A DNA stretch of 64,000 bases, taken from assembly GCA_016235345.1 (NCBI GenBank), contig JACRLG010000024.1, positions 62,001 through 126,000 on the forward strand, written 5' to 3'. This DNA is from Deltaproteobacteria bacterium. Lineage in GTDB: Bacteria; Desulfobacterota; Desulfobacteria; Desulfobacterales; Desulfatibacillaceae. The translations under genes and the position numbers were made by a program. The notes beneath the pieces were generated by a model. The model was given only the letters and a program-made list of their open reading frames with translations. It ran no database searches and was not told the DNA's origin. Position 1 is the first letter of the stretch. Each line of letters opens with the position of its first letter. Shown piece by piece: positions 29,804 to 41,708 of the stretch.

Positions 29804-31582
29804 CTAACCTTCGCCTTCAAGAGACTCGGCTATGCGGCCCTTTTCATAGATGCTTGCGTAAACAGGGCCGGTTTCCAGAAGCTCCCGGTGGCAACCCTCC
29901 TCGACCAGTTTCCCCGAGGCCATGACGAAAATCACGTCCGCCCTGGCGAGGGTGGATGTGCGATGGGTTGCCATGATGGTGGTCCGGCCCTGGCGGGACC
30001 ACAAAAGAGCGTCCACCACGGCGCTTTCGGTGCGCACGTCCACCATTGAAAGGGCGTCGTCAAGAACCAGAACCGCCGGGTCGCCGGCAAGGGCCCTGGC
30101 AAGGGCCAGCCTCTGGCGCTGGCCGCCCGATAGCGTTATGCCGCGCTCGCCCATGACCGCGTCGAGCCCGCCTTCGACCTGGCTTATTTCATCGCCCAGT
30201 TTCACAGCCGAAAGGGCCTTCCACACGGTTTCGTCCGAGATGCCGTCCCGCCCGAAAACGACGTTTTCCCTTATGGTTTCGGAGAAAATCACCGGCTCCT
30301 GGGTTACGAAGCCCATGTTTTTCCTGAGGGACGAAAGAGTTGCGTCCAACACGTCCAGTCCGTCCAGTATCACGCTTCCGGGAGGAGGTTCAACCAGCCT
30401 TGCGAGAGCAGCTAAAAGGGTGCTCTTGCCGCTTCCCACCGCCCCGGCGAAAACCGCGAAGGAGCCCGCCGGAATGTTTAAACTCACACCGGAAACAGCA
30501 GTCTCCGTCCTTCCCGGATGGGAAAGGGTGAGGGATTTGATTTCCACACAGCCACGTACGGGTTCCGAAATCGGCTTCGCGCCGGGCTTGTCCCGTACTG
30601 CGGGCCTTGTGTCCATCACTGCGCTTATGCGCTCCATGGCAGCCGCCCCTCGCTGGATGAGGTTGGCCACCCAGCCCATGGCCATCATGGGCCATGCGAG
30701 AAGCGAAAGGTAGGTTATGAAGGCCACGAAATCGCCGGGGCTGATCCTTCCCCATACGGCCAGCATCCCTCCGTACAGGAGCACCACCGCAAGACAGAGG
30801 TTGGTGACGGACTCCATCATGGGGAAGAATATCCCCAGGTTCTTCGCCATTCGGATGTTGCTGGAAGCGTACAGGGAGCTTGCCGCGAACACGCGCTCGC
30901 GTATCCAGCCCTTGCGCCCGTAGGCGGTGATCACGCGGTTTCCCGCAAAGGCCTCGCGGGTGCGCTCGGTCAGATCCCCGAAAATCGCCTGGAGCTTCTG
31001 GTATCCAAGCCACATGCGCTGGGTGTAAACCCGGCTTGCGATGATAACGAAGGGTGCGGGCAAAAGGGTCCAGAATGTTAGCCAGCCGTCGATGGCCGCC
31101 ATGAACCCCACAGCAGCCGCGCCCAGCACGAAGCCGTCCATGGCCGCCACCAGGCCGAAACCCGCAGCCATGCGCACGGCGGTGAGGTCGTTCACCATCC
31201 GGGCCATCAGGTCTCCGGTGGGCGTTTTCTGGTACCAGGCGTCATCCAGGTTCTGAAGGTGTTCGTAGAGCCTTAGCCGCACCTCACGCTCCACCCTCCG
31301 GCTGTGGCCCAGAAGGTAATAGCGCCAAAGATACCGGAAAACCGCCATTGCAGCAGCCAGCCCCACGATCCAGGCGGCGAACGCAAAAAGAAGGTCCTGG
31401 TCCGCCCGGCCCGCAGCCAGGGAGTCCACCGCATCCCTTATAATGAGCGGCGTCACAAGCTGAAGGCCGTCCACGAAAAGAAGGCACAGAAGCCCGGCAA
31501 TAACGGCGTAGCGCCCCTCGATGAACATGCCCCGGAGAGGGGCGAAGTTTTTAAGGGCTGGCAGGATTTTGGACGATTTCAT
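29804..31582 (-). CDS. ABC exporter half-transporter (membrane domain fused to ATPase), MdlA-like
   Basis: The 592-residue protein starts MKSSKILPALKNFAPLRGMF, with AAGG upstream. Six transmembrane helices lie in about residues 20-310. The ATPase has Walker A GAVGSGKST (380-388), signature LSGGQ (484-488), Walker B VLVLDDA (504-510) and switch H540. The catalytic Glu after Walker B is Asp509, as in the degenerate-site subunit of heterodimeric exporters of the MdlA/YheI kind. No partner subunit gene is adjacent. Substrate is unknown, probably a hydrophobic compound or peptide exported across the inner membrane. Confidence 0.88.
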   Translation of the reverse strand: MKSSKILPALKNFAPLRGMFIEGRYAVIAGLLCLLFVDGLQLVTPLIIRDAVDSLAAGRADQDLLFAFAAWIVGLAAAMAVFRYLWRYYLLGHSRRVEREVRLRLYEHLQNLDDAWYQKTPTGDLMARMVNDLTAVRMAAGFGLVAAMDGFVLGAAAVGFMAAIDGWLTFWTLLPAPFVIIASRVYTQRMWLGYQKLQAIFGDLTERTREAFAGNRVITAYGRKGWIRERVFAASSLYASSNIRMAKNLGIFFPMMESVTNLCLAVVLLYGGMLAVWGRISPGDFVAFITYLSLLAWPMMAMGWVANLIQRGAAAMERISAVMDTRPAVRDKPGAKPISEPVRGCVEIKSLTLSHPGRTETAVSGVSLNIPAGSFAVFAGAVGSGKSTLLAALARLVEPPPGSVILDGLDVLDATLSSLRKNMGFVTQEPVIFSETIRENVVFGRDGISDETVWKALSAVKLGDEISQVEGGLDAVMGERGITLSGGQRQRLALARALAGDPAVLVLDDALSMVDVRTESAVVDALLWSRQGRTTIMATHRTSTLARADVIFVMASGKLVEEGCHRELLETGPVYASIYEKGRIAESLEGEG

Positions 31583-31757
31583 TTCAGCCTTCGATTTCTG
31601 GGACAAGACCCCCGCACAGGCCCGACAGGGATTCACCGGGCCATTCCTACATCCGGCGGCCCCGTTCGTCAAGGTCGGTGAGCGGTCAACCGGGCGGTAA
31701 TCCGAAATGGTTTTTCACGCCTTTGATGCCGGATTTTCGAAAACCGTAAAAAAATGC

Positions 31758-31763
31758 TTGACA
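31758..31763 (+). promoter_or_regulatory. Candidate -35 element for the aro leader transcript
   Basis: A perfect TTGACA lies 60 bases upstream of the leader peptide start. No convincing -10 is visible at 16-18 bases (GAAAAC region), so promoter identity is tentative. Confidence 0.35.
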
Positions 31764-31822
31764 GCATCCGCCTGTGTATGGAAAACTCCCGGCAACGTCA
31801 ATCTTTCAGGGAGTCTTTTTCC

Positions 31823-31906
31823 GTGCATAATTCGGGCATGAACTTTTACGGGGCCTTTTACTTTTATTATTACGGCACCGGTCTGCCCGGAGGTGCGCGG
31901 CCCTGA
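31823..31906 (+). CDS. Phe/Tyr-rich leader peptide of the aromatic amino acid operon
   Basis: A 27-codon ORF starts at GTG 31823, nine bases after AGGGAG (31808-31813); an internal ATG at 31838 is an alternative start. The peptide contains MNFYGAFYFYYYGTG, i.e. eight Phe/Tyr codons out of eleven between 31844 and 31873. It ends TGA at 31904-31906. This is the pattern of ribosome-stalling leader peptides such as pheL. It lies upstream of a terminator hairpin and of genes for chorismate, Phe and Tyr synthesis. Ribosome stalling when charged tRNA-Phe or tRNA-Tyr is scarce should expose the antiterminator segment at 31881-31890. Confidence 0.8.
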   Translation: MHNSGMNFYGAFYFYYYGTGLPGGARP

Positions 31907-31945
31907 TCTGAACATACAGGCGACGCGAACCGAGCCGAGGCGGAC
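31881..31945 (+). promoter_or_regulatory. Antiterminator pairing that excludes the terminator
   Basis: GTCTGCCCGG (31881-31890), inside the leader ORF just after the Phe/Tyr run, can pair with CCGAGGCGGAC (31935-31945) in ten pairs with one G-U and one bulged A. CCGAGGCGGAC is part of the 5' arm of the terminator, so the two structures are mutually exclusive. A ribosome stalled at the Phe/Tyr codons leaves the segment free; one that reaches the stop codon covers it. Confidence 0.65.
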
Positions 31946-31975
31946 CTAACAGTCCGCCTCGGCTCTTTGCGTTTT
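31932..31975 (+). terminator. Attenuator terminator of the aro operon
   Basis: GAGCCGAGGCGGAC (31932-31945) pairs perfectly over 14 bases with GTCCGCCTCGGCTC (31952-31965) around CTAACA. It is followed by TTTGCGTTTT. It begins 25 bases after the leader stop codon, the usual geometry of an amino acid attenuator. Confidence 0.8.
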
Positions 31976-32099
31976 GGGGCATCGTAGTCGCTGATGGCTG
32001 TGTCAGGCATCGGAATCCGTTTCGGTAACGTACAAAAGCGTACGCTCCCTCACGGCTTCCTCGCCTTCCTTGCCCTAAGCGACTACGCAGCCCCAAAAC
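31971..32099 (+). repeat. Dispersed cruciform repeat, copy I (exchanged outer stem)
   Basis: The inner part (GCTGTGTCAGGC, ACGTACAAAAGCGTACGCTCCCTC) matches the other copies. The outer arms are different in sequence but still pair: GTTTTGGGGC...GTAGTCGCT at 31971-31992 against AGCGACTACG...GCCCCAAAAC ending at 32099. It sits between the attenuator and the first aro gene. Confidence 0.7.
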
Positions 32100-32205: not shown

Positions 32206-32370
32206 ATGAAGATGAAAATTGGAGGAAATGTCAAAGCCGGGCGGAAAATGTGCGTGGCGAGTGTTTGCGCAGCTTCCGTCCGGCCTGCCTTTGCTTACCG
32301 GGTGACGGGCTTGGCAGGTTCCGGCACGGGGCCGTTTTCGGCGGCAAAGGCGACGATAAATAGTCTTTAA
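32206..32370 (+). CDS. Possible 54-residue small ORF in the aro leader region
   Basis: ATG 32206 is preceded by GAGGG at six bases. The predicted peptide begins MKMKIGGNVKAGRKMCVASV and is not recognised. It has no aromatic run, so it is not a second leader peptide of the same kind. Codon use is not informative at this length. Confidence 0.2.
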   Translation: MKMKIGGNVKAGRKMCVASVCAASVRPAFAYRVTGLAGSGTGPFSAAKATINSL

Positions 32371-32425: not shown

Positions 32426-33262
32426 ATGAGCAACAACAACATTCCAGGATCGAGGAGAAGTGTCATGACGATGGTCGGCAAACAGATCAGGCTTGAGAGG
32501 ATCAAGAACCGCGAAACCGGCAGAATGGTCATAGTCCCCATGGATCACGGCATTTCGGTGGGGCCGATAGCGGGGCTTATCGACATGAAAAAGGCGGTTT
32601 CGGCGGTTGCCAGGGGCGGGGCCAATGCGGTTGTGGAGCACAAGGGCCTGGTCGGGGCCGGCCATCGCGGAAAAGGCCCGGACATCGGCCTCATTCTGCA
32701 CCTTTCGGCCTCCACGGCGCTTTCTCCCTTCCCCAACGCCAAGACCATTGTCACGTCCCTTGAAGAAGCCATGAAGCTGGGCGCTGACGCGGTATCCATC
32801 CACGTCAACATAGGTGATGGCAAGGAAAAGGAAATGCTCAAGGATTTCGGGCGTATAAGCTACGAGGCCCGGAACTGGGGAATGCCGCTCCTGGCAATGG
32901 TCTACGCACGCGGCAAGAAAATCACCAACGAGTATGGTGTGGAATACGTGAAACACGCGGCCCGCCTTGGCTACGAAATGGGCGCGGACATCGTTAAAGT
33001 CCCCTACACCGGAAGCGCCGAAACCTTCCGCGAGGTCGTGGAATGCTGCGGCGTGCCCGTGGTTATAGCAGGCGGGGCCAAGATGGACTCCGACCGTGAC
33101 ATCCTGGAAATGGTGAAGGGCTCCATTGACGCCGGCGGCTCCGGGGCCTCCATAGGCCGCAACATCTTCCAGCACGACGACCCGGAAAAGATGACCCGCG
33201 CCATCGCCGCCATCGTCCATAACGAAGTGACGGTGGATGAGGCCCTTAAGATTCTTGCTTAA
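32426..33262 (+). CDS. aroA': 2-amino-3,7-dideoxy-D-threo-hept-6-ulosonate (ADH) synthase, AroA'
   Basis: The 278-residue class I aldolase-like protein matches the archaeal enzyme type (MJ0400). Landmarks are [53 protein letters not shown], a Schiff-base lysine region [11 protein letters not shown] and the phosphate loop [11 protein letters not shown] and [11 protein letters not shown]. In the archaeal route it joins aspartate semialdehyde with a 6-deoxy-ketohexose phosphate, replacing DAHP synthase. An alternative start is M 32465. It is the first structural gene after the attenuator, and is followed by AroB'. Confidence 0.88.
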
Positions 33263-33294: not shown

Positions 33295-33414
33295 AGCCTG
33301 GATAAAAACGATGAAATGCAAGGAACGCGAGAAGCCAATGAGCAAGCGTACTGAAAGTACGTGGCGGAATTGGCTTTGAAGCGTGACACAGCAGTTCGCG
33401 TTTTTGGACGGGCC
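33295..33414 (-). repeat. Dispersed cruciform repeat, copy B (inverse orientation)
   Basis: Begins GCCTGGATAAAAACGATGAA and ends TTCGCGTTTTTGGACGGGC, the inverse of the usual orientation. AAGCCAAT/ATTGGCTT flank the GCGTAC...GTACG core. It lies in the gap between the AroA' and AroB' genes. Confidence 0.75.
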
Positions 33415-33438
33415 GTAAAGAAGGAAGGAAAGGTTTGC

Positions 33439-34431
33439 ATGAAATCCGTATGGGTGAAGATTATCCCCTGGGACAAAAAACTGGCCACCACGGCCATTGA
33501 AAACGGGGCTGACGCCTTAATGGTCGAGCCTTCCGACACCGAAAAGGTGAGGGAGCTTTCCAGGATGGCGGTCATCTCCGACAACGGCGACCTTGTTCCG
33601 GGGCGCGACGTTATCGAAATCGAAGTGACAAGCCAGGACGACGAACCGGCTGTTGTGGCGGCGGCGGCAAAGGGCCGGGTGATAGTGCACACGCCCGACT
33701 GGACCATAATCCCCCTGGAAAACCTCATCGCCCGAAAAGCCGAGGTTGTCGTTCCGGTGGCTGATTTCGACGGGGCGCAGATGGCCGCCGGAGTCCTGGA
33801 GCACGGGGTATGGGGCATTCTCACCGAAACCCGCGACCCCCTGGAACTGAAGCGAATACTCACCACCCTTAAAAGCGGGGACGAGGACGCGGCCCTCGTC
33901 CCCGCTGAAATCGTAAACGTGAAACCCGTGGGCATGGGCGACCGGGTCTGCGTGGACACCTGCACTAATATGGGGCTTGGCCAGGGGATGCTGGTGGGCA
34001 ATTCCAGCAAGGCCCTTTTCCTGGTTCACGCCGAAAGCGTTGAAAACCCATACGTGGCCCCAAGGCCCTTCAGGGTCAACGCCGGTGCTGTTCACGCTTA
34101 CACCCGCATTCCGGGCGGCAAGACCCGCTATCTGTCGGAACTCAAAAGCGGAGATGCCGTGCTGGTAAGCGATTACACGGGCAAGTCCGAGCCCGCCGCA
34201 GTGGGCAGGGTAAAGATCGAAAAAAGGCCGCTCCTTCTGGTCACCGCAAGGGCCGGGGAAAAGGAGTTTTCAGTGGTTCTCCAGAACGCCGAAACCATAC
34301 GCCTGACAGATACGGCAGGAAAGCCGGTATCTGTGGTTAAGCTCAACCCCGGAGACAAGGTGCTGGCGGCCCTGGAGGAGGGCGGGCGGCATTTCGGAAT
34401 GAAGATAGAGGAAACCATCCTCGAAAAATAG
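33439..34431 (+). CDS. aroB': 3-Dehydroquinate synthase II, AroB'
   Basis: The 330-residue protein starts MKSVWVKIIPWDKKLATTAI with GGAAGGAAAGG upstream; the open frame before it runs through repeat B. Family landmarks are ENGADALMVEPSD, the stretch VTSQDDEPAVVAAAAKGRV, HGVWGILTETRDPLELKRIL, and GMGDRVCVDTCTNMGLGQGMLVGN. The enzyme oxidises and cyclises the AroA' product to 3-dehydroquinate using NAD, replacing AroB. Together the pair shows that this organism enters the shikimate pathway by the archaeal-type route. Confidence 0.9.
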   Translation: MKSVWVKIIPWDKKLATTAIENGADALMVEPSDTEKVRELSRMAVISDNGDLVPGRDVIEIEVTSQDDEPAVVAAAAKGRVIVHTPDWTIIPLENLIARKAEVVVPVADFDGAQMAAGVLEHGVWGILTETRDPLELKRILTTLKSGDEDAALVPAEIVNVKPVGMGDRVCVDTCTNMGLGQGMLVGNSSKALFLVHAESVENPYVAPRPFRVNAGAVHAYTRIPGGKTRYLSELKSGDAVLVSDYTGKSEPAAVGRVKIEKRPLLLVTARAGEKEFSVVLQNAETIRLTDTAGKPVSVVKLNPGDKVLAALEEGGRHFGMKIEETILEK

Positions 34432-34458: not shown

Positions 34459-35556
34459 ATGAACGGACCCCCAAACGGCAGGGACGCTGAATTAGCCGCC
34501 CTGCGGCAGGAGATTGACTCCGTTGACGAGCAGATGGTCAATCTCCTCAACAAGCGCATCGAAATCGCCCAGAGAATAGGGCGGGTGAAAAAGGACAAGG
34601 GCCTTTCGGTGGTGGATTTCTCCCGTGAAAGGGCCGTGCTTTCAAGGGTTGCGTCCTTGAACAACGGGCCGCTTCCCCAGGACACCTTAAGGCTCGTTTA
34701 CGCCGAGGTGATGGCGGCGGCCCGCAAGATTCAAAAGCCGGTAAAGGTCGCCTATTTCGGCCCGGAGGCCACCTTTACGCATCTTGCCGCCACCCGCCAC
34801 TTCGGCCAGACCACGAGCTTCGTGCCTCAGGTCTCCATTGCCGACGTGTTCGACGAGGTGGAAAAATCAAAGTGCGAGTACGGCGTGGTGCCGGTGGAAA
34901 ATTCCATCGAAGGCGCTGTGAATCACACCTTAGACCTTCTCTACAGCGCCGACGCCCTGATTCTCGCCGAAATCTACACCCCCATAGTGCATGAACTTAT
35001 GAGCAAGGGGGCGAAGATCGAGGACATCAAAAGGGTGTACTCCCACCCGCAGCCCCTGGCCCAGTGCAGGGCATGGCTTCGGAGGCACCTTCCCAACGCG
35101 GAGCTAGTGGAGGCGGCCTCCACCTCAGAGGCGGCCAGGCTTGCGGTGAAGGAGCCGGGAACAGCCGCCATCGCATCCAGCCTCGCGGCGGTGGTGTACG
35201 ATCTTGACGTGCTTGCCTCCCACATCCAGGACGCCACCCACAACGCCACCCGATTCCTTGTAATCGGCAAGGACAAGGTGTCCCCGACCGGTAACGACAA
35301 GACCTCCATCCTCTTCGCCACGGCCCACGTTCCGGGCGCGCTCTACCACGCGCTTCAGCCCATTTCGGAATCGGGCATAAACATGGTGAAGCTGGAGAGT
35401 CGGCCATCCAAAAGCGCAAGCTGGCATTATCTTTTTTACGTCGATCTGGTGGGCCACATCGAAGACGAGATCGTAAAGGGCGTGCTGGAAAAGATGCAGC
35501 CGTACTGCGCGTTCATCAAGTGGCTGGGGTCGTATCCCATCTCCGAGAACGTCTGA
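34459..35556 (+). CDS. pheA: Bifunctional chorismate mutase / prephenate dehydratase (P-protein)
   Basis: The 365-residue protein has an N-terminal AroQ chorismate mutase (about 8-90; LRQEIDSVDEQMVNLLNKR, IGRVKKDKGL). The prephenate dehydratase domain follows (about 93-270; VAYFGPEATFTHLAA, VPVENSIEGAVNHTLDLL, the catalytic ATHNATRFLVI). An ACT domain closes it (about 280-360; TSILFATAHVPGALYHAL and KLESRPSKSASWHYLFYVD), which normally binds Phe for feedback inhibition. AAGGA lies eight bases before the ATG. It makes phenylpyruvate, and with tyrA links the operon to both amino acids sensed by the leader. Confidence 0.93.
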   Translation: MNGPPNGRDAELAALRQEIDSVDEQMVNLLNKRIEIAQRIGRVKKDKGLSVVDFSRERAVLSRVASLNNGPLPQDTLRLVYAEVMAAARKIQKPVKVAYFGPEATFTHLAATRHFGQTTSFVPQVSIADVFDEVEKSKCEYGVVPVENSIEGAVNHTLDLLYSADALILAEIYTPIVHELMSKGAKIEDIKRVYSHPQPLAQCRAWLRRHLPNAELVEAASTSEAARLAVKEPGTAAIASSLAAVVYDLDVLASHIQDATHNATRFLVIGKDKVSPTGNDKTSILFATAHVPGALYHALQPISESGINMVKLESRPSKSASWHYLFYVDLVGHIEDEIVKGVLEKMQPYCAFIKWLGSYPISENV

Positions 35557-35727: not shown

Positions 35728-36561
35728 ATGCTGCCTGACGCAAAAACCGTTCTCCACGCCGTTTTCGGGCACCCGGTGGGCCACAGCCTGTCGCCTTCCA
35801 TGCACAACAGGGCCTTTTCAGAACTTGGCTTAAACTGCGTGTATCTCGCCTTTGACGTCACCGACATAGGGGCGGCCATGAAGGCGGTGCGGACGCTTTC
35901 CATGCGCGGGGCCTCGGTCACCATTCCCCATAAGCTTGCGGTGATGGATCATCTTGACGAGGTTGACGAGGCGGCCCGGAAAATGGGAGCGGTGAATACC
36001 ATCATCAATGACGGCGGGCGGCTTTACGGGAAAAACACCGACGGCCTTGGCGCTGTCATTGCCCTTGAGGAAAAAATTTCGCTTGCGGGAAAATCCCTCC
36101 TTCTTCTGGGAAGCGGCGGGGCGGCGCGGGCCGTGGCCCACGCGGTGAAAAACGCCGGGGCGAAGGTGGCCATCGCCCACAGGCCGGAGGACGCCCAAGA
36201 GGCTGAAACACTCGCGGGTGAAGTTAATGCCAAGGTGCTGCTTCTATCGCAAGCATCCGGGGAGTCCTGCGATATTGCAGTCAACGCCACGCCCCTCGGC
36301 ATGGCTCCCAAGGTTGAAGATACCCCTGTATCCGCCGATTTTTTCCGGCCCGGAATGGTTGTGATGGACGTTGTATACAATCCCCTTGAAACCCGGTTTT
36401 TGCGGGAGGCGAAACAAAAAGGCTGCGAAACGGTTGACGGGGCCGCAATGTTCGTTTACCAGGGAGCAGCGCAGTTCACGCTTTGGACGGGCAGGGAAGC
36501 GCCGTATGCCGTGATGAGAAAAACCGTGCTTGACGCTCTTTTTCCCCAACCAGGAAAATGA
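35728..36561 (+). CDS. aroE: Shikimate dehydrogenase
   Basis: The 277-residue enzyme reduces 3-dehydroshikimate with NADPH. The substrate domain has FGHPVGHSLSPSMHN and SVTIPHKLAVMDHLDE with the catalytic Lys. The cofactor domain shows the glycine loop LLLGSGGAARAVAHAV, followed by HRPEDA where NADP enzymes have NRT, and NATPLGMAP. It ends with DGAAMFVYQGAAQF. Its stop codon overlaps the ATG of aroA, so the two are translationally coupled. No gene for 3-dehydroquinate dehydratase, the preceding step, is seen in the cluster. Confidence 0.93.
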   Translation: MLPDAKTVLHAVFGHPVGHSLSPSMHNRAFSELGLNCVYLAFDVTDIGAAMKAVRTLSMRGASVTIPHKLAVMDHLDEVDEAARKMGAVNTIINDGGRLYGKNTDGLGAVIALEEKISLAGKSLLLLGSGGAARAVAHAVKNAGAKVAIAHRPEDAQEAETLAGEVNAKVLLLSQASGESCDIAVNATPLGMAPKVEDTPVSADFFRPGMVVMDVVYNPLETRFLREAKQKGCETVDGAAMFVYQGAAQFTLWTGREAPYAVMRKTVLDALFPQPGK

Positions 36562-37826
36562 AAATGTACAAGACCATAAAGTCGGCCCAAAGCGGCCCGT
36601 TTACGGCAAGCGTGCCCGGTTCCAAGAGCCTGACCCACAGGATGCTCATTGCGGCAAGCCTTGCCGCAGGCGAATCGGTGATCGAAAACGCCCTTTTGAG
36701 CCGCGACACGGAGCTCACCCGCGAGGGCCTTGTCCGAATGGGGGCCGGGATCACCCAAAACGGGTCCCGCCTGGAAATCACAGGCACCGGGGCCGATCTT
36801 GCGCCTTATTCCGATCCCATTTACCTGGAAAATTCAGGCACTTCCATGCGCCTCCTGTCAGCGGTGGCGGTGCTTGGAAAGGGAGCCTACACCCTGACCG
36901 GAAGCCGCCGCATGTGCGAGCGTCCCGTGGGTGAGCTTCTTTCGGCCATAAACGCGCTTGGCGCGGTTGCCGAGGCATTAAGCCCAGGCGGCTGCCCTCC
37001 GGTGCGCATAAAATGCCGCCCCATAACCGGAAGCCACGTTTATGTTGACTGCCGAAAAAGCTCCCAGTTCCTTTCCGCGCTTCTCCTCATATCCCCGTAC
37101 TGCCCGGAGGGGCTCGCCATCTCGGTTTCAGGGGGCTTGGTTTCAAGGCCCTACGTGGACCTCACTCTTTCGGTGATGAATTCCTTCGGCGTGGAAGTCA
37201 AACGCGAAGGCTATGAAAATTTCTCGGTAACGGGTAAGGATTTCTATCTTCCAGGCAAGTACGCGGTGGAGCCGGACGCGAGCGCCGCCAGCTATTTTTT
37301 CGCGGCAGGGGCCATCACCGGAAACCCGGTAACGGTTCCCGGCCTTTCCGCAACCTCAGCCCAGGGGGACGCCGGGTTCGTCAGGGTGCTGGAAAAAATG
37401 GGCGCAGTGGTGCGAGAGGGCAGGCAGGGCATAACGGTTTCCGGCGGCCAGCTCAAGGGGATCACCGTCGACATGGGCGACATGCCCGACGTGGTGCCCA
37501 CACTTGCCGCCGTGGCGGCCTTTGCCAAAGGGACAACGCGGATTCTCAACGTGGCGCACCTTAAGGTGAAGGAGTCCGACAGGCTGGAGGCAGTTGTCCG
37601 GGAGCTCTCCCGAATGGGAATCAAGGCCGCAACCGACGGCGAAACCCTCACCATAGAAGGCGGCGTCCCGAAACCGGCCTCCATCGAAACATACGAGGAC
37701 CACAGAATAGCCATGAGTTTTGCCGTGGTCGGCCTGAGGGCTCCGGGAACGGTCATCCGCGATCCTTCTTGCGTTGGCAAATCCTTCCCGGATTTTTGGG
37801 ACCAGTGGGAGAAAATGTACGCATGA
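36558..37826 (+). CDS. aroA: 3-Phosphoshikimate 1-carboxyvinyltransferase (EPSP synthase)
   Basis: The 422-residue protein carries the family landmarks: N-terminal SVPGSKSLTHRMLIAASLA-like segment (SKSLTHR), the phosphoenolpyruvate loop ENSGTSMRLLSAVAV, SSQFLSALLLISPY, VEPDASAASYFFAA and LKVKESDRLEAVVREL. It ends with YEDHRIAMSFAVVGL and PSCVGKSFPDFW. It transfers enolpyruvyl to shikimate 3-phosphate. The start is either ATG 36558, overlapping the aroE stop, or ATG 36564. The end overlaps aroK by four bases. Confidence 0.95.
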   Translation: MKMYKTIKSAQSGPFTASVPGSKSLTHRMLIAASLAAGESVIENALLSRDTELTREGLVRMGAGITQNGSRLEITGTGADLAPYSDPIYLENSGTSMRLLSAVAVLGKGAYTLTGSRRMCERPVGELLSAINALGAVAEALSPGGCPPVRIKCRPITGSHVYVDCRKSSQFLSALLLISPYCPEGLAISVSGGLVSRPYVDLTLSVMNSFGVEVKREGYENFSVTGKDFYLPGKYAVEPDASAASYFFAAGAITGNPVTVPGLSATSAQGDAGFVRVLEKMGAVVREGRQGITVSGGQLKGITVDMGDMPDVVPTLAAVAAFAKGTTRILNVAHLKVKESDRLEAVVRELSRMGIKAATDGETLTIEGGVPKPASIETYEDHRIAMSFAVVGLRAPGTVIRDPSCVGKSFPDFWDQWEKMYA

Positions 37827-38362
37827 TCCGTGCGCAAAATATTTATCTTACAGGATACCGATGTACCGGAAAAACAACCGTGGGACGGGCCCTGGCGGAT
37901 GTGCTTGGGCTTGATTTCGCCGACGCGGATGAAGTTCTGGTGGGTGAAGCCGGAAAGGACGTGGCCTCCATAGTTGCCGAAGAGGGCTGGGAAGGATTTC
38001 GCGACCGGGAAAGCGCAGTGCTGAAAAGGCTTGCCGAGCATGGCGGGCTCGTTGTGGCCACGGGGGGCGGGGTCATCCTTCGTCCGCAAAATACGGCGCT
38101 CATGCGGGAAACCGGATGCGTGGTCTGGCTTACGGCGGAGCCTGCAGTCATCAGAAACCGCATGGGGGCGGATTCGGTCACGTCATCCCAGAGGCCGTCT
38201 CTTACGGGGCAGGATGTGCTGTCGGAGATCGAGGACGTGCTATCGCAGCGCGGCCCGCTTTACGCGGCGGCGGCGCACGTCACGATAGCCACGGACGATC
38301 TTCAGGTATCCGAAATAGTACGCGAAATTTTTGAATCAGCGGGGCAATTCCATGCCGGGTAA
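37823..38362 (+). CDS. aroK: Shikimate kinase
   Basis: The 179-residue kinase starts MIRAQNIYLTGYRCTGKTTV, with Walker A GYRCTGKT near residues 11-18. The shikimate-binding DADEVL follows (family DxD), then EGWEGFRDRESAVL and GLVVATGGGVILRP. The lid arginine lies near SSQRPSLTG. The ATG overlaps the aroA stop as ATGA; the 3' end overlaps aroC by 11 bases. It phosphorylates shikimate with ATP. Confidence 0.92.
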   Translation: MIRAQNIYLTGYRCTGKTTVGRALADVLGLDFADADEVLVGEAGKDVASIVAEEGWEGFRDRESAVLKRLAEHGGLVVATGGGVILRPQNTALMRETGCVVWLTAEPAVIRNRMGADSVTSSQRPSLTGQDVLSEIEDVLSQRGPLYAAAAHVTIATDDLQVSEIVREIFESAGQFHAG

Positions 38363-39413
38363 CACCTTTGGAACAATGTTTCGGGTCACCACCTGGGGCG
38401 AAAGCCACGGCCCCGCCTTAGGCGCGGTGATAGACGGCTGCCCGCCCATGCTGGCCCTGTCCGAGAAGGACATCCAGACAATGCTGGACCGCAGAAAGCC
38501 CGGAAACGGCTCGGCGGCGGGGACGGCGCGGCGCGAGGGGGACAGCGTCCGCATACTTTCGGGCGTGTTCCAAGGCCTCACCACCGGAACCCCCATCTGC
38601 GTTATGGTGGAAAACACCGACCATAAAAGCCGTGATTACGGGGCGCTGGAGCGGGTTTTCAGGCCGGGTCACGGCGATTATACCTATTATAAGAAGTACG
38701 GCATACGCGACCACAGGGGCGGAGGCCGGGCCTCGGCCCGTGAAACGGTGGGCCGGGTAGCCGCCGGGGCCGTTGCCGGGCGGGTGCTGGAAAGGGCCGG
38801 TATAAAGGTTTTTTCCGCGACACTTGAAATGGGGGGCGTAAAGGCGGTAGATATGGATTACGCCCAATGCGGGGAAAACCCCTACTGCTGCCCGGACGCC
38901 GACGCGGCGCTGAAAATGGACGAGCGGGTGAAGGAGGTGCGGGGTATAGGGGACTCCATAGGCGGAATCGTGGAGGTAACCGCCACCGGCCTTTCCGCAG
39001 GGCTTGGCGAACCTGTTTTCGACAAGCTGGACGCGAAAATTGCGGCAGCCCTCATGAGCATAGGCGCGGTGAAGGGGGTTGAGATAGGCTCCGGTTTCGC
39101 CGCAGCCAGGTCCACGGGTTCCGTCAACAACGATCCCGTTACCATCCAGGGGTTTTCCTCCAACAACGCTGGCGGCGTTCTGGCCGGGGTTTCAAGCGGC
39201 CAGGACATAGTGGCCCGGGTGGCGGTGAAGCCCATACCCTCCATCGTCATGGAGCAGGACACCGTGGACCTCGAAAACAGCGCTGTGAAGCTTTCCGTGG
39301 GGGGCCGCCACGACGTGTGTGCAATTCCCCGCGTCAACGTTGTTTGCGAGGCCATGATCATGCTGGTTCTGGCGGATTTCATTCTTCAGCAGAGGGCTGT
39401 TTCCGGCTGGTAA
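38352..39413 (+). CDS. aroC: Chorismate synthase
   Basis: The 353-residue protein starts MPGNTFGTMFRVTTWGESHG, the usual start with GESHGPALG. Other signatures are RRKPGNGSAAGTARREGDSV in outline, FRPGHGDYTYYKKYGIRDHRGGGRASARET in parts, and the C-terminal GRHDVCAIPRVNVVCEAM. It forms chorismate from EPSP and needs reduced FMN. The stop codon TAA is also the first three bases around the left arm of repeat D. It is the last enzyme before the branch to pheA and tyrA. Confidence 0.95.
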   Translation: MPGNTFGTMFRVTTWGESHGPALGAVIDGCPPMLALSEKDIQTMLDRRKPGNGSAAGTARREGDSVRILSGVFQGLTTGTPICVMVENTDHKSRDYGALERVFRPGHGDYTYYKKYGIRDHRGGGRASARETVGRVAAGAVAGRVLERAGIKVFSATLEMGGVKAVDMDYAQCGENPYCCPDADAALKMDERVKEVRGIGDSIGGIVEVTATGLSAGLGEPVFDKLDAKIAAALMSIGAVKGVEIGSGFAAARSTGSVNNDPVTIQGFSSNNAGGVLAGVSSGQDIVARVAVKPIPSIVMEQDTVDLENSAVKLSVGGRHDVCAIPRVNVVCEAMIMLVLADFILQQRAVSGW

Positions 39414-39548
39414 CAGCCCGCCGAAAAACGCGATTTGCTGTGTCAGGCTTCGCGGGCGTCGTGCTCACGTGCATAAAGCACGCTCCGCCGCCGTCCGCTT
39501 GCCTTCCTTGCACTTCATCGTTTTTATCCAGGCTTTTTCAACAGGCTG
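39412..39548 (+). repeat. Dispersed cruciform repeat, copy D (compensated core)
   Basis: Starts inside the aroC stop codon with AACAGCCCGCCGAAAAACGCG and ends CATCGTTTTTATCCAGGCTT plus TTTCAACAGGCT. The core reads CGTGC...GCACG in place of CGTAC...GTACG: both sides have changed together, so pairing is kept. Confidence 0.8.
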
Positions 39549-39579
39549 GCAGGCATTCGGAAGAAAATCACGGAGAAAA

Positions 39580-40449
39580 ATGGAACCCCACTTTAATAGA
39601 AAAAGCGTAACCATAGGCATAATAGGCGGAACCGGGCTCATGGGCCAGTGGTTCCGCCGTTTTTTTGAAAGCGCCGGGCACAGGGTTCTCATCTGCGGCA
39701 GAAAAACGGAACTCACCGAAGACGAGCTTGTCCGGGGCTCCCAGGTGGTGATTATAAGCCAGCCGCTTTCCGCAGCCCTTGAAACCGCCCGCCGGGTGGG
39801 GCCGTTGATGGGCGAAACCCAGGCTTTGATGGACATCTGCTCGTTAAAAAGCGAGATTGCCTCCGCAATGCTGGAAAGCACCGGGGCCGAGGTGGTGGCG
39901 GCCCATCCGCTCTTCGGGCCTTCCACGGAATCATTAAAGGGCCAGAACGTGGTTCTCTGCCCCATGCGGGGTTCAGTCTGGGCGGCCTGGCTTGGGGCTG
40001 AGCTTTCAAAGGGAGGGGCGAAGGTCACCCAAAGCGATCCGGTAACCCACGACCGCATGACCGCCGTGGTGCAGGGCCTGACGCACTTCATCACCATAGC
40101 CCTTGGCCGCACCCTTGCCGATCTGGGCCTTGCCCCGGAAACCCTTCTTCCCTTCGCCACCCCCATCTTCCGGGCCAAGCTCGCCCTGGTTGGCCGGCTT
40201 TTCGCCCAGGACCTTTCCCTTTACGCGGCGCTTGTGGGAAAGAACCCGGAAGCCGCTTGGGTGATAGAAGCCTTCATGAAAGCCTGTCAGGAGGCGAAAG
40301 GCTCCATTTCGCCGGGCGCGAGCCCTGAAACCGGCATGGGGTATCTTGAGAACATCCGCGATTTTCTGGGGGATTACAGCGCAAGGGGCCTTAAAGAAAG
40401 CGACTTTTTTCTTGCGGCCCTGGCGGGATATGGGCGTAAGACCGAATAA
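39580..40449 (+). CDS. tyrA: Prephenate dehydrogenase (TyrA family)
   Basis: The 289-residue protein starts MEPHFNRKSVTIGIIGGTGL with CGGAG upstream; the longer open frame crosses repeat D. The Rossmann loop is IGIIGGTGLMGQWF. Family landmarks are VVIISQPL, MDICSLKSEI, AAHPLFGPS and the catalytic His region VVQGLTHFITIALG. The C-terminal helical dimerisation domain shows LYAALVGKNPEA. It converts prephenate to 4-hydroxyphenylpyruvate, or arogenate to Tyr. No mutase or ACT domain is fused. It closes the aro cluster. Confidence 0.88.
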   Translation: MEPHFNRKSVTIGIIGGTGLMGQWFRRFFESAGHRVLICGRKTELTEDELVRGSQVVIISQPLSAALETARRVGPLMGETQALMDICSLKSEIASAMLESTGAEVVAAHPLFGPSTESLKGQNVVLCPMRGSVWAAWLGAELSKGGAKVTQSDPVTHDRMTAVVQGLTHFITIALGRTLADLGLAPETLLPFATPIFRAKLALVGRLFAQDLSLYAALVGKNPEAAWVIEAFMKACQEAKGSISPGASPETGMGYLENIRDFLGDYSARGLKESDFFLAALAGYGRKTE

Positions 40450-40526: not shown

Positions 40527-41708
40527 GTGTTTTTTAACCGCGCCGCAAACCGATTCCGCCTAACCCTTCTTTCGGCCCGCCACAGGCGTATGGCTGGAGC
40601 CGTGGCCGTTCGCCGGGCCGCCGAAATGCTGTGCCGGGCGCGTCCCGGTTTCGTGCTGCCCCACCCGGTGGAGCTTGTGGTGGCGGTGGAAAGCGCCTGT
40701 CAGTTAAAATGCTCCATGTGCGGAATAAGAAAGGTGATGAAGCGCCCGGAATTTTTTGGCCGACGCATCACCCGTGCCGACCTTCTCCCGGCGCTCACGG
40801 AAGCCTCGAAATGGCGGCCCCGCCCCTACCTCAAGCTGACCGGCGGGGAGCCGCTTCTTCTTGGCGACGGGCTTTTGGGGATGCTTGACGATGCCGGTCG
40901 CCTGGGCCTTGCTTCCAGGCTCTCCACCAACGGGGTGCTTCTTTCCGACGCCGCCCTCGCACGCGCCCTGGTAAAAACCGGCGTGGACGCCGTGACCATC
41001 TCCCTGGACGGGCCGCGCGACGTCCACAATGCCATAAGGGGCAGGGATTTCGCCTTTGACAGGGCCGCCCTGGGAATCAAAAATCTTTTCCTTGCGCGAA
41101 AATCCCTTGGAAGCGCGGGGCCGCTCATAATGGTTTCCACGGTGGTGAGCGCCGCCAACCACCACCGGCTGATCGAGCTTTTCGGAATTTTAAAAGAGCT
41201 TCCCATAGACTGGTGGAACGTCCAACTGATAAACTACGTTTCCGAAAAGGCCAGGGACGAGGCTGACGCCGTATCGAAGAGCTTCGGTTTCGAGCCGGGG
41301 GCCTGGGACGCCTTCGTGAACGAGCCGGTGACGCAGGTCAACCCGGAATCTCTTGCGGAGCAGTTGATGGCCGTGGCCGGGGCGCGGAAGAATTTCGTAT
41401 TGAGTTTTCTCGACGCCGGGGGCTTTTCGCCGAGAAGCCTCAAAGCCTATTACGGGGGAAGCGAAATCGAGGTTTCGCCAAGATTTTGCACGGTTCCGTA
41501 TCTGGCAATGCACGTGGTTCCAAGCGGCGACATGGTGTTTTGCATAGATTATCCGCACGTGTCTTACGGCAACATAAAAACCCACGGCTTGAAAGATGCC
41601 TGGAAGTCGGAAACCGCCCGGAAATACAGGCGCTACCTTGAGGAATGCCGCAGGCTGACCGGGAGCAACCCGCCCCAGTGCCAAAGGTGCAACTGGCTTT
41701 ACAACTGA
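40527..41708 (+). CDS. Radical SAM protein with SPASM-like C-terminal cysteines
   Basis: The 393-residue protein starts at GTG with GAAGGG eight bases upstream. The radical SAM triad is C58-x3-C62-x2-C65 (SACQLKCSMCG), and TGGEPLL is the SAM-binding motif. Extra cysteines near the end (RFCTVPYLAMH, VFCIDYP and CQRCNWLYN) suggest a second cluster, as in SPASM/twitch proteins. It follows tyrA by 77 bases and precedes a membrane glycosyltransferase-like gene by 26, so it may belong to a surface-polymer operon. The substrate is not known. Confidence 0.8.
   Translation: MFFNRAANRFRLTLLSARHRRMAGAVAVRRAAEMLCRARPGFVLPHPVELVVAVESACQLKCSMCGIRKVMKRPEFFGRRITRADLLPALTEASKWRPRPYLKLTGGEPLLLGDGLLGMLDDAGRLGLASRLSTNGVLLSDAALARALVKTGVDAVTISLDGPRDVHNAIRGRDFAFDRAALGIKNLFLARKSLGSAGPLIMVSTVVSAANHHRLIELFGILKELPIDWWNVQLINYVSEKARDEADAVSKSFGFEPGAWDAFVNEPVTQVNPESLAEQLMAVAGARKNFVLSFLDAGGFSPRSLKAYYGGSEIEVSPRFCTVPYLAMHVVPSGDMVFCIDYPHVSYGNIKTHGLKDAWKSETARKYRRYLEECRRLTGSNPPQCQRCNWLYN

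Follow-up and report, generated by a model that had tools for sequence, protein, structure and literature searches.

The shikimate operon in the window, the whole 64-kb stretch of DNA analyzed here, is almost certainly preceded by a ribosome-mediated transcription attenuator of the trp/phe/his type, judging from its sequence and those of its relatives. The explanation that best fits the region overall, and which we consider very probable, is an attenuator that senses Phe and Tyr, extended by a second terminator that would answer to the same leader peptide.

The operon lies on the plus strand in the order aroA′-aroB′-pheA-aroE-aroA-aroK-aroC-tyrA. Its first two genes encode 2-amino-3,7-dideoxy-D-threo-hept-6-ulosonate synthase (aroA′, 32465 to 33262; TIGR01949 above cut-off, supported by the alignment of relatives) and 3-dehydroquinate synthase II (aroB′, 33361 to 34431; PF01959, NF002627). 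The ATG at 32465, with the Shine-Dalgarno sequence GAGGAG, is probably the true start of aroA′ rather than position 32426, because it agrees with the alignment of relatives and has the better Shine-Dalgarno sequence. Then come pheA (chorismate mutase/prephenate dehydratase/ACT, 34459 to 35556), aroE (shikimate dehydrogenase, 35728 to 36561), aroA (EPSP synthase, 36558 to 37826), aroK/aroL (shikimate kinase, NF002988; ORF listed as 37769 to 38362, with a later true start), aroC (chorismate synthase, 38331 to 39413) and tyrA (prephenate dehydrogenase, 39469 to 40449), all on the plus strand. Directly 3′ of tyrA, a radical SAM/SPASM protein gene (40527 to 41708) scores under the cut-offs of all the named families listed.

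Upstream of the operon, the first-pass annotation had described a 27-codon ORF with eight aromatic codons in a run of eleven, and each of its elements was found in place on the plus strand. The Shine-Dalgarno sequence AGGGAG (31808 to 31813) lies 9 nt before the GTG start at 31823, and the ORF (31823 to 31906, stop codon at 31904 to 31906) encodes the peptide VHNSGMNFYGAFYFYYYGTGLPGGARP, which has homologues in relatives. The putative control codons, NFYGAFYFYYY at 31841 to 31873, have matching runs in relatives and also match the products of the operon, which includes both pheA and tyrA. In all six frames of the 64-kb window, this run is the only stop-free stretch of 11 codons with at least eight Phe, Tyr or Trp codons, and none occurred in 20 Markov-simulated windows. 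A likely −35 element, TTGACA, is present at 31758 to 31763 on the plus strand, and the sister species has the identical hexamer at the equivalent position, which makes a transcription start downstream of 31906 unlikely. An automatic scan upstream of the leader returned no full sigma-70 site, and no good −10 element was recognized.

The 3′ part of the ORF and the sequence that follows it can form mutually exclusive structures. Segment 2 (GGTCTGCCCGGAGGTGCGCGG, 31880 to 31900), inside the leader ORF, is the 5′ strand of the antiterminator: GGTCTGCC, from position 31880, is complementary to GGCGGACC, which ends at 31946. Segment 3 (31932 to 31945) serves both as the 3′ strand of the antiterminator and as the 5′ arm of terminator 1, whose 3′ arm is segment 4 (31952 to 31965). 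Terminator 1 (3:4, 31932 to 31965) has a stem of 14 bp, GAGCCGAGGCGGAC/GTCCGCCTCGGCTC, with all 14 positions paired, and a 6-nt loop. The antiterminator and the perfect terminator stem had both been proposed in the first-pass annotation; the pairing scheme as a whole stood in those two parts but lacked an additional inner stem of the antiterminator, a protector hairpin and the coupled second terminator described below. The protector involves segment 1 (TCGGGCA, 31832 to 31838), which would pair with positions 31885 to 31891 of segment 2 in the absence of a stalled ribosome. The T-rich stretch claimed after the terminator is present, but the tract, TTTGCGTTTT, is broken up and only mediocre; the same stem in the sister species is followed by T9. 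Relative to shuffled versions, the leader region folds with a z score of −5.9. All these segments are on the plus strand. Because terminator 1 sits between divergently transcribed genes, the ABC transporter gene on the minus strand (29804 to 31672) and the plus-strand aro operon, it cannot be an ordinary gene 3′ end. A known amino acid leader was also rejected as its identity, since the Rfam leader models, including the Phe leader, gave no match above the gathering score in the window; in a search of 12 related loci, they gave no leader match, and only a tmRNA was found.

From this layout we infer ribosome stalling, termination and a dependence of both on amino acids. The attenuator would sense the charging of tRNA-Phe and tRNA-Tyr and control the shikimate-Phe-Tyr operon. 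When Phe and Tyr are sufficient, the ribosome would reach the leader stop codon and cover segment 2, upon which 3:4 would form and RNA polymerase would stop before aroA′. When Phe or Tyr is scarce, the ribosome would stall at 31844 to 31873 and leave segment 2 free; formation of 2:3 would then preclude terminator 1, and the operon would be transcribed. Without translation, 1:2 would form, making termination the default. By extension, segment 4, once released by 2:3, would pair with segment 5 and weaken terminator 2 (5:6). In the resulting chain of six segments, 1:2, 3:4 and 5:6 would correspond to both terminators on, and 2:3 and 4:5 to both off. Such an arrangement, with one sensor and two terminators in series, would give tighter repression.

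Homologous leader ORFs, which the first-pass annotation had proposed to look for, are present in nearly all relatives. Among the 31 loci of the same order whose DNA upstream of aroA′ was available (the window is one of them), 30 have a short ORF there that contains an aromatic run, usually ends in TGLPGVR or a similar sequence and mostly lies 75 to 200 nt before the aligned aroA′ start; aroB′ was found in 38 of the 59 relatives searched. Most of 80 named Desulfobacterota loci likewise have an aromatic leader ORF upstream of aroA′, and among named genomes the leader ranges over Desulfobacteria, Desulfobacca, Syntrophobacterales, Desulfofervidaceae and Desulfonatronovibrio. Runs of at least seven aromatic codons in 11 occur in 89 of 106 upstream regions versus 13 of 1055 control segments. 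Together with the Markov simulation of the window, this comparison ruled out a chance origin of the run. In the nearest relative, of the same genus, the leader reads VASISGGLFFGAYYFYYYAPGLPGGARP, segments 2 to 4 are near-identical to those of the window and T9 follows terminator 1. These findings indicate that Desulfobacterota widely use leader-peptide attenuation, although it is hardly described for them in the literature that we found. The original reading of the codons as Phe and Tyr holds for the window but overlooked Trp: Trp codons are absent from the leaders of the window's family, and one or two are present in most other leaders. Their occurrence had no clear relation to trp genes in the operon. 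Most Desulfobacterales leaders have Trp codons, yet no trp genes were detected in the 6 to 11 kb scanned downstream.

The pairings are maintained by compensatory change. For 51 nonredundant loci, we compared the pairing energies of a locus's own segments with those after between-species swapping (2000 swaps). The own energies of 2:3, 3:4, 4:5 and 5:6 were better than those of 2000 of 2000 swaps, and the sham pairs 2:5 and 3:6 had no such advantage in the same test on these loci. For the protector 1:2, likewise, 0 of 2000 swaps were as good in relatives. We also counted cells changed on both sides in 44 aligned sequences against 500 shuffles, a kind of test that sequence relatedness inflates: 2:3 had 12 such cells, 3:4 and 5:6 together 70, and 4:5 had 17 (0 of 500 shuffles in each case), and the sham pair 3:6 had 5 (148 of 500). 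Neither the swaps nor the shuffles correct for relatedness, but it affects the sham pairs equally. The anatomy of the leader is thus conserved, and 1:2, 2:3, 3:4, 4:5 and 5:6 all covary in relatives. The covarying terminator and antiterminator that the first-pass annotation had put forward as a check are among them, as 3:4 and 2:3.

Conservation of the C-terminal sequence (S)TGLPG(V)R over many genera might instead mean that the ORF encodes a small functional peptide, with the hairpins merely insulating the operon. Several observations make this very improbable. The C-terminal conservation tracks the RNA: in the distant loci L145 and L147, translation passes through segment 2 in another frame (GVCPPP and GVYPPP), and segments 2 and 3 change together, from GTCTGCCC/GGGCAGAC to GTCTACCC/GGGTAGAC. 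That segment 2 remains in step with segment 3 in a different frame argues that what is conserved is the RNA and not the peptide tail. In Syntrophia, the C terminus is quite different (PECASTFKRK) and so is the RNA. Finally, the amino acid runs change with the downstream operon, as detailed below.

We return to the attenuator and its second terminator. Of 100 loci, 70 have another terminator-like hairpin at most 40 nt beyond the first; some classes (Syntrophia, Desulfobaccia) have one terminator only. The 3′ arm of terminator 1 can pair with the 5′ arm of terminator 2 (4:5), and the complementarity often extends to the U-tract, opposite a run of A. On these comparisons, it is somewhat probable that the second terminator is functionally coupled to the leader sensor. 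The two hairpins could also be independent back-up terminators, the second a duplicate that adds strength, with 4:5 arising incidentally from common descent or from a favored GCCGTGG stem, a possible but rather doubtful alternative. Consistent with it, GCCGTGG-like stems occur in 81 of the 415 terminators of the scanned loci (own attenuators included), as illustrated by the false match L162, and 4:5 is on average no more stable than 5:6 (medians of −18.0 and −19.7, respectively). Because stems of this kind abound in these genomes, we compared segment 5 with 299 other terminators of the same loci. Segment 4 paired with segment 5 at a mean of −17.9 kcal/mol versus −8.1 with the others, only 10 of which paired with it as strongly as segment 5. 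The view that a generic terminator consensus alone accounts for the complementarity is mostly rejected by this within-genome control. The double changes in 4:5, absent to that extent from the sham pair 3:6 of equal kinship and stem similarity, also speak against independent back-ups, as does the persistence of the complementarity across the wider gap between the terminators in the window and with a different stem sequence in a Trp leader (see below).

With segment 3 sequestered, the minimum-energy (equilibrium) fold preferred 4:5 in only 16 of 51 loci. Given this result and the similar energies of 4:5 and 5:6, coupling must either be partial or act cotranscriptionally; in the latter case, 4:5 would need to pair ahead of 5:6 as the transcript is being made.

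Terminator 1 and segment 5 of the window are set apart by an inserted dispersed repeat element (31971 to 32099). It has inverted ends of 28 nt that are 86% complementary, and its core (31997 to 32073) matches approximately 40 other places in the genome at 76 to 97% identity. An insert of similar appearance occupies the corresponding position in the sister species. A probable remnant of terminator 2 follows on the plus strand (5:6, 32236 to 32284; GCCGGGCGGAA/TTCCGTCCGGC), with 11 bp, an inner stem and a weak T-tract, CTGCCTTTGC; the sister species retains its stem, with a diverged loop. Despite a separation of approximately 270 nt, the 4:5 pairing in the window amounts to −22.0 kcal/mol. Because the inserted repeat separates the two terminators, we consider coupling of the second one less probable in the window itself than in relatives. 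A 54-codon ORF (32206 to 32370) overlaps the terminator-2 hairpin; its start is similar in the sister species and the remainder has diverged, and it is probably not a gene.

The interrupted T-tract of terminator 1 and the weak tract of terminator 2 suggest that this copy of the attenuator may be leaky or partly eroded. Taken further, these two features and the repeat could mean that the attenuator has been disabled in this genome, leaving the operon constitutively expressed. We regard such decay as improbable, since relative to the sister species the leader ORF, the near-identical segments 2 to 4 and the stem of terminator 2 are kept while flanks and loops have diverged, which suggests continued selection, and a GC-rich stem of 14 bp followed by U residues can still terminate.

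Leaders of the same layout precede other operons. We searched other genomes and operons with a covariance model of the aro leader (R1) and identified downstream genes with NCBIfam for representatives. As R1 contains two hairpins, its matches in 223 of 395 genomes of the phylum include ordinary terminators and are biased toward tandem cases, so the prevalence figure was taken from the aroA′-anchored set. One R1 match in the window's own genome (C13:49880) is an ordinary gene-end terminator.

Codon specificity in these leaders follows the downstream gene. Phe/Tyr/Trp runs precede canonical DAHP synthases, of the AroFGH type in L176 and of the Bacillus subtilis type, with aroB, in L183. Trp runs precede trpE, trpD and aroF-trp, and an aromatic run precedes an aminotransferase gene. 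Val/Leu-rich leaders with the same tandem hairpins (TGVLVVVV in L209, VLVLVVVV in L212) precede the gene for the large subunit of acetolactate synthase (ilvB). Phe-rich leaders precede a paaK-like phenylacetate-CoA ligase gene (IFFFFFYF in L199:740-2250, LYFYFYF in L201) in two genomes of the window's family, one of them Desulfatibacillum alkenivorans; a Phe leader at this position suggests a role of the ligase in making Phe from arylacetate and not in catabolism. In the window's own genome, contig C34 carries a Trp leader on the minus strand (L160:6205-6306; MNRVFAKGFSGWVWCWRTSYSCAQSNPFGENAA, with WVWCW) before aroF (DAHP synthase)-trpEGDCF, an operon whose trpB is split across contig ends. 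This leader has two terminators and a 4:5 pairing of 12 bp (−21.2). The archaeal-type AroA′ and a canonical DAHP synthase thus coexist in one genome. Aromatic leaders of the same type precede a canonical DAHP synthase in L176, L181, L183, L185, L188, L189, L191, L195 and L198, and AroA′ was not found in the fetched stretches of these nine loci. As the leader stands over both AroA′/AroB′ and canonical DAHP synthases, it may have outlived a replacement of the entry enzymes that it controls.

Leader-peptide attenuation is classical. Like the trp leader and those of pheA and pheST (pheL, pheM) in Escherichia coli, the element has a short ORF with control codons, 1:2, 2:3 and 3:4 alternatives and a terminator before the first gene. 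It differs from them in its mixed Phe and Tyr (often also Trp) codons for a whole shikimate-Phe-Tyr operon and, in most relatives, in the coupled second terminator. A chain of mutually exclusive segments is also a feature of the his leader, in which A:B, C:D and E:F alternate with B:C and D:E and the last hairpin alone acts as a terminator. In the present leaders, in contrast, 3:4 and 5:6 both look like intrinsic terminators (two such hairpins in 70 of 100 loci). The enterobacterial his leader likewise has six segments, with an extra hairpin that is proposed to reduce read-through at the basal level (PMC1183508). Two terminators in series before one operon are also found in the tandem riboswitches of Desulfovibrio, where two THI elements each have a terminator (PMC545781); there, each terminator has its own sensor, whereas here one sensor seems to serve two.

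The first-pass annotation had called attenuation of an aroA′-aroB′ operon a combination not seen described, which is only partly right. A 2005 report (PMC1173090, Table 7) includes a putative attenuator of Desulfovibrio vulgaris before aroA′>aroB′>aroQ-pheA>aroF>tyrA>[trp], with the same two first genes, and the combination is thus not wholly new. In the part of that report that bears on it, the attenuator is a database prediction, with no mention of a leader peptide, codon content, conservation or tandem terminators. Neither a single leader-peptide sensor coupled to two terminators nor the clade-wide leader set was described in the literature searched, a coverage mostly outside subscription journals.

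The leaders may represent a common Desulfobacterota design, in which one leader-peptide sensor, six segments and two serial terminators are re-used with other codon runs for Phe/Tyr/Trp, Trp, branched-chain and phenylacetate-CoA ligase operons, the Phe codons at the ligase reflecting assimilation of arylacetate into Phe; in our assessment this proposal is evenly balanced. One sensor gating two terminators could explain very low basal expression without a repressor, and the codon content of a leader would be a tool for assigning the amino acid that its operon serves, as for the paaK operon with its Phe leader.
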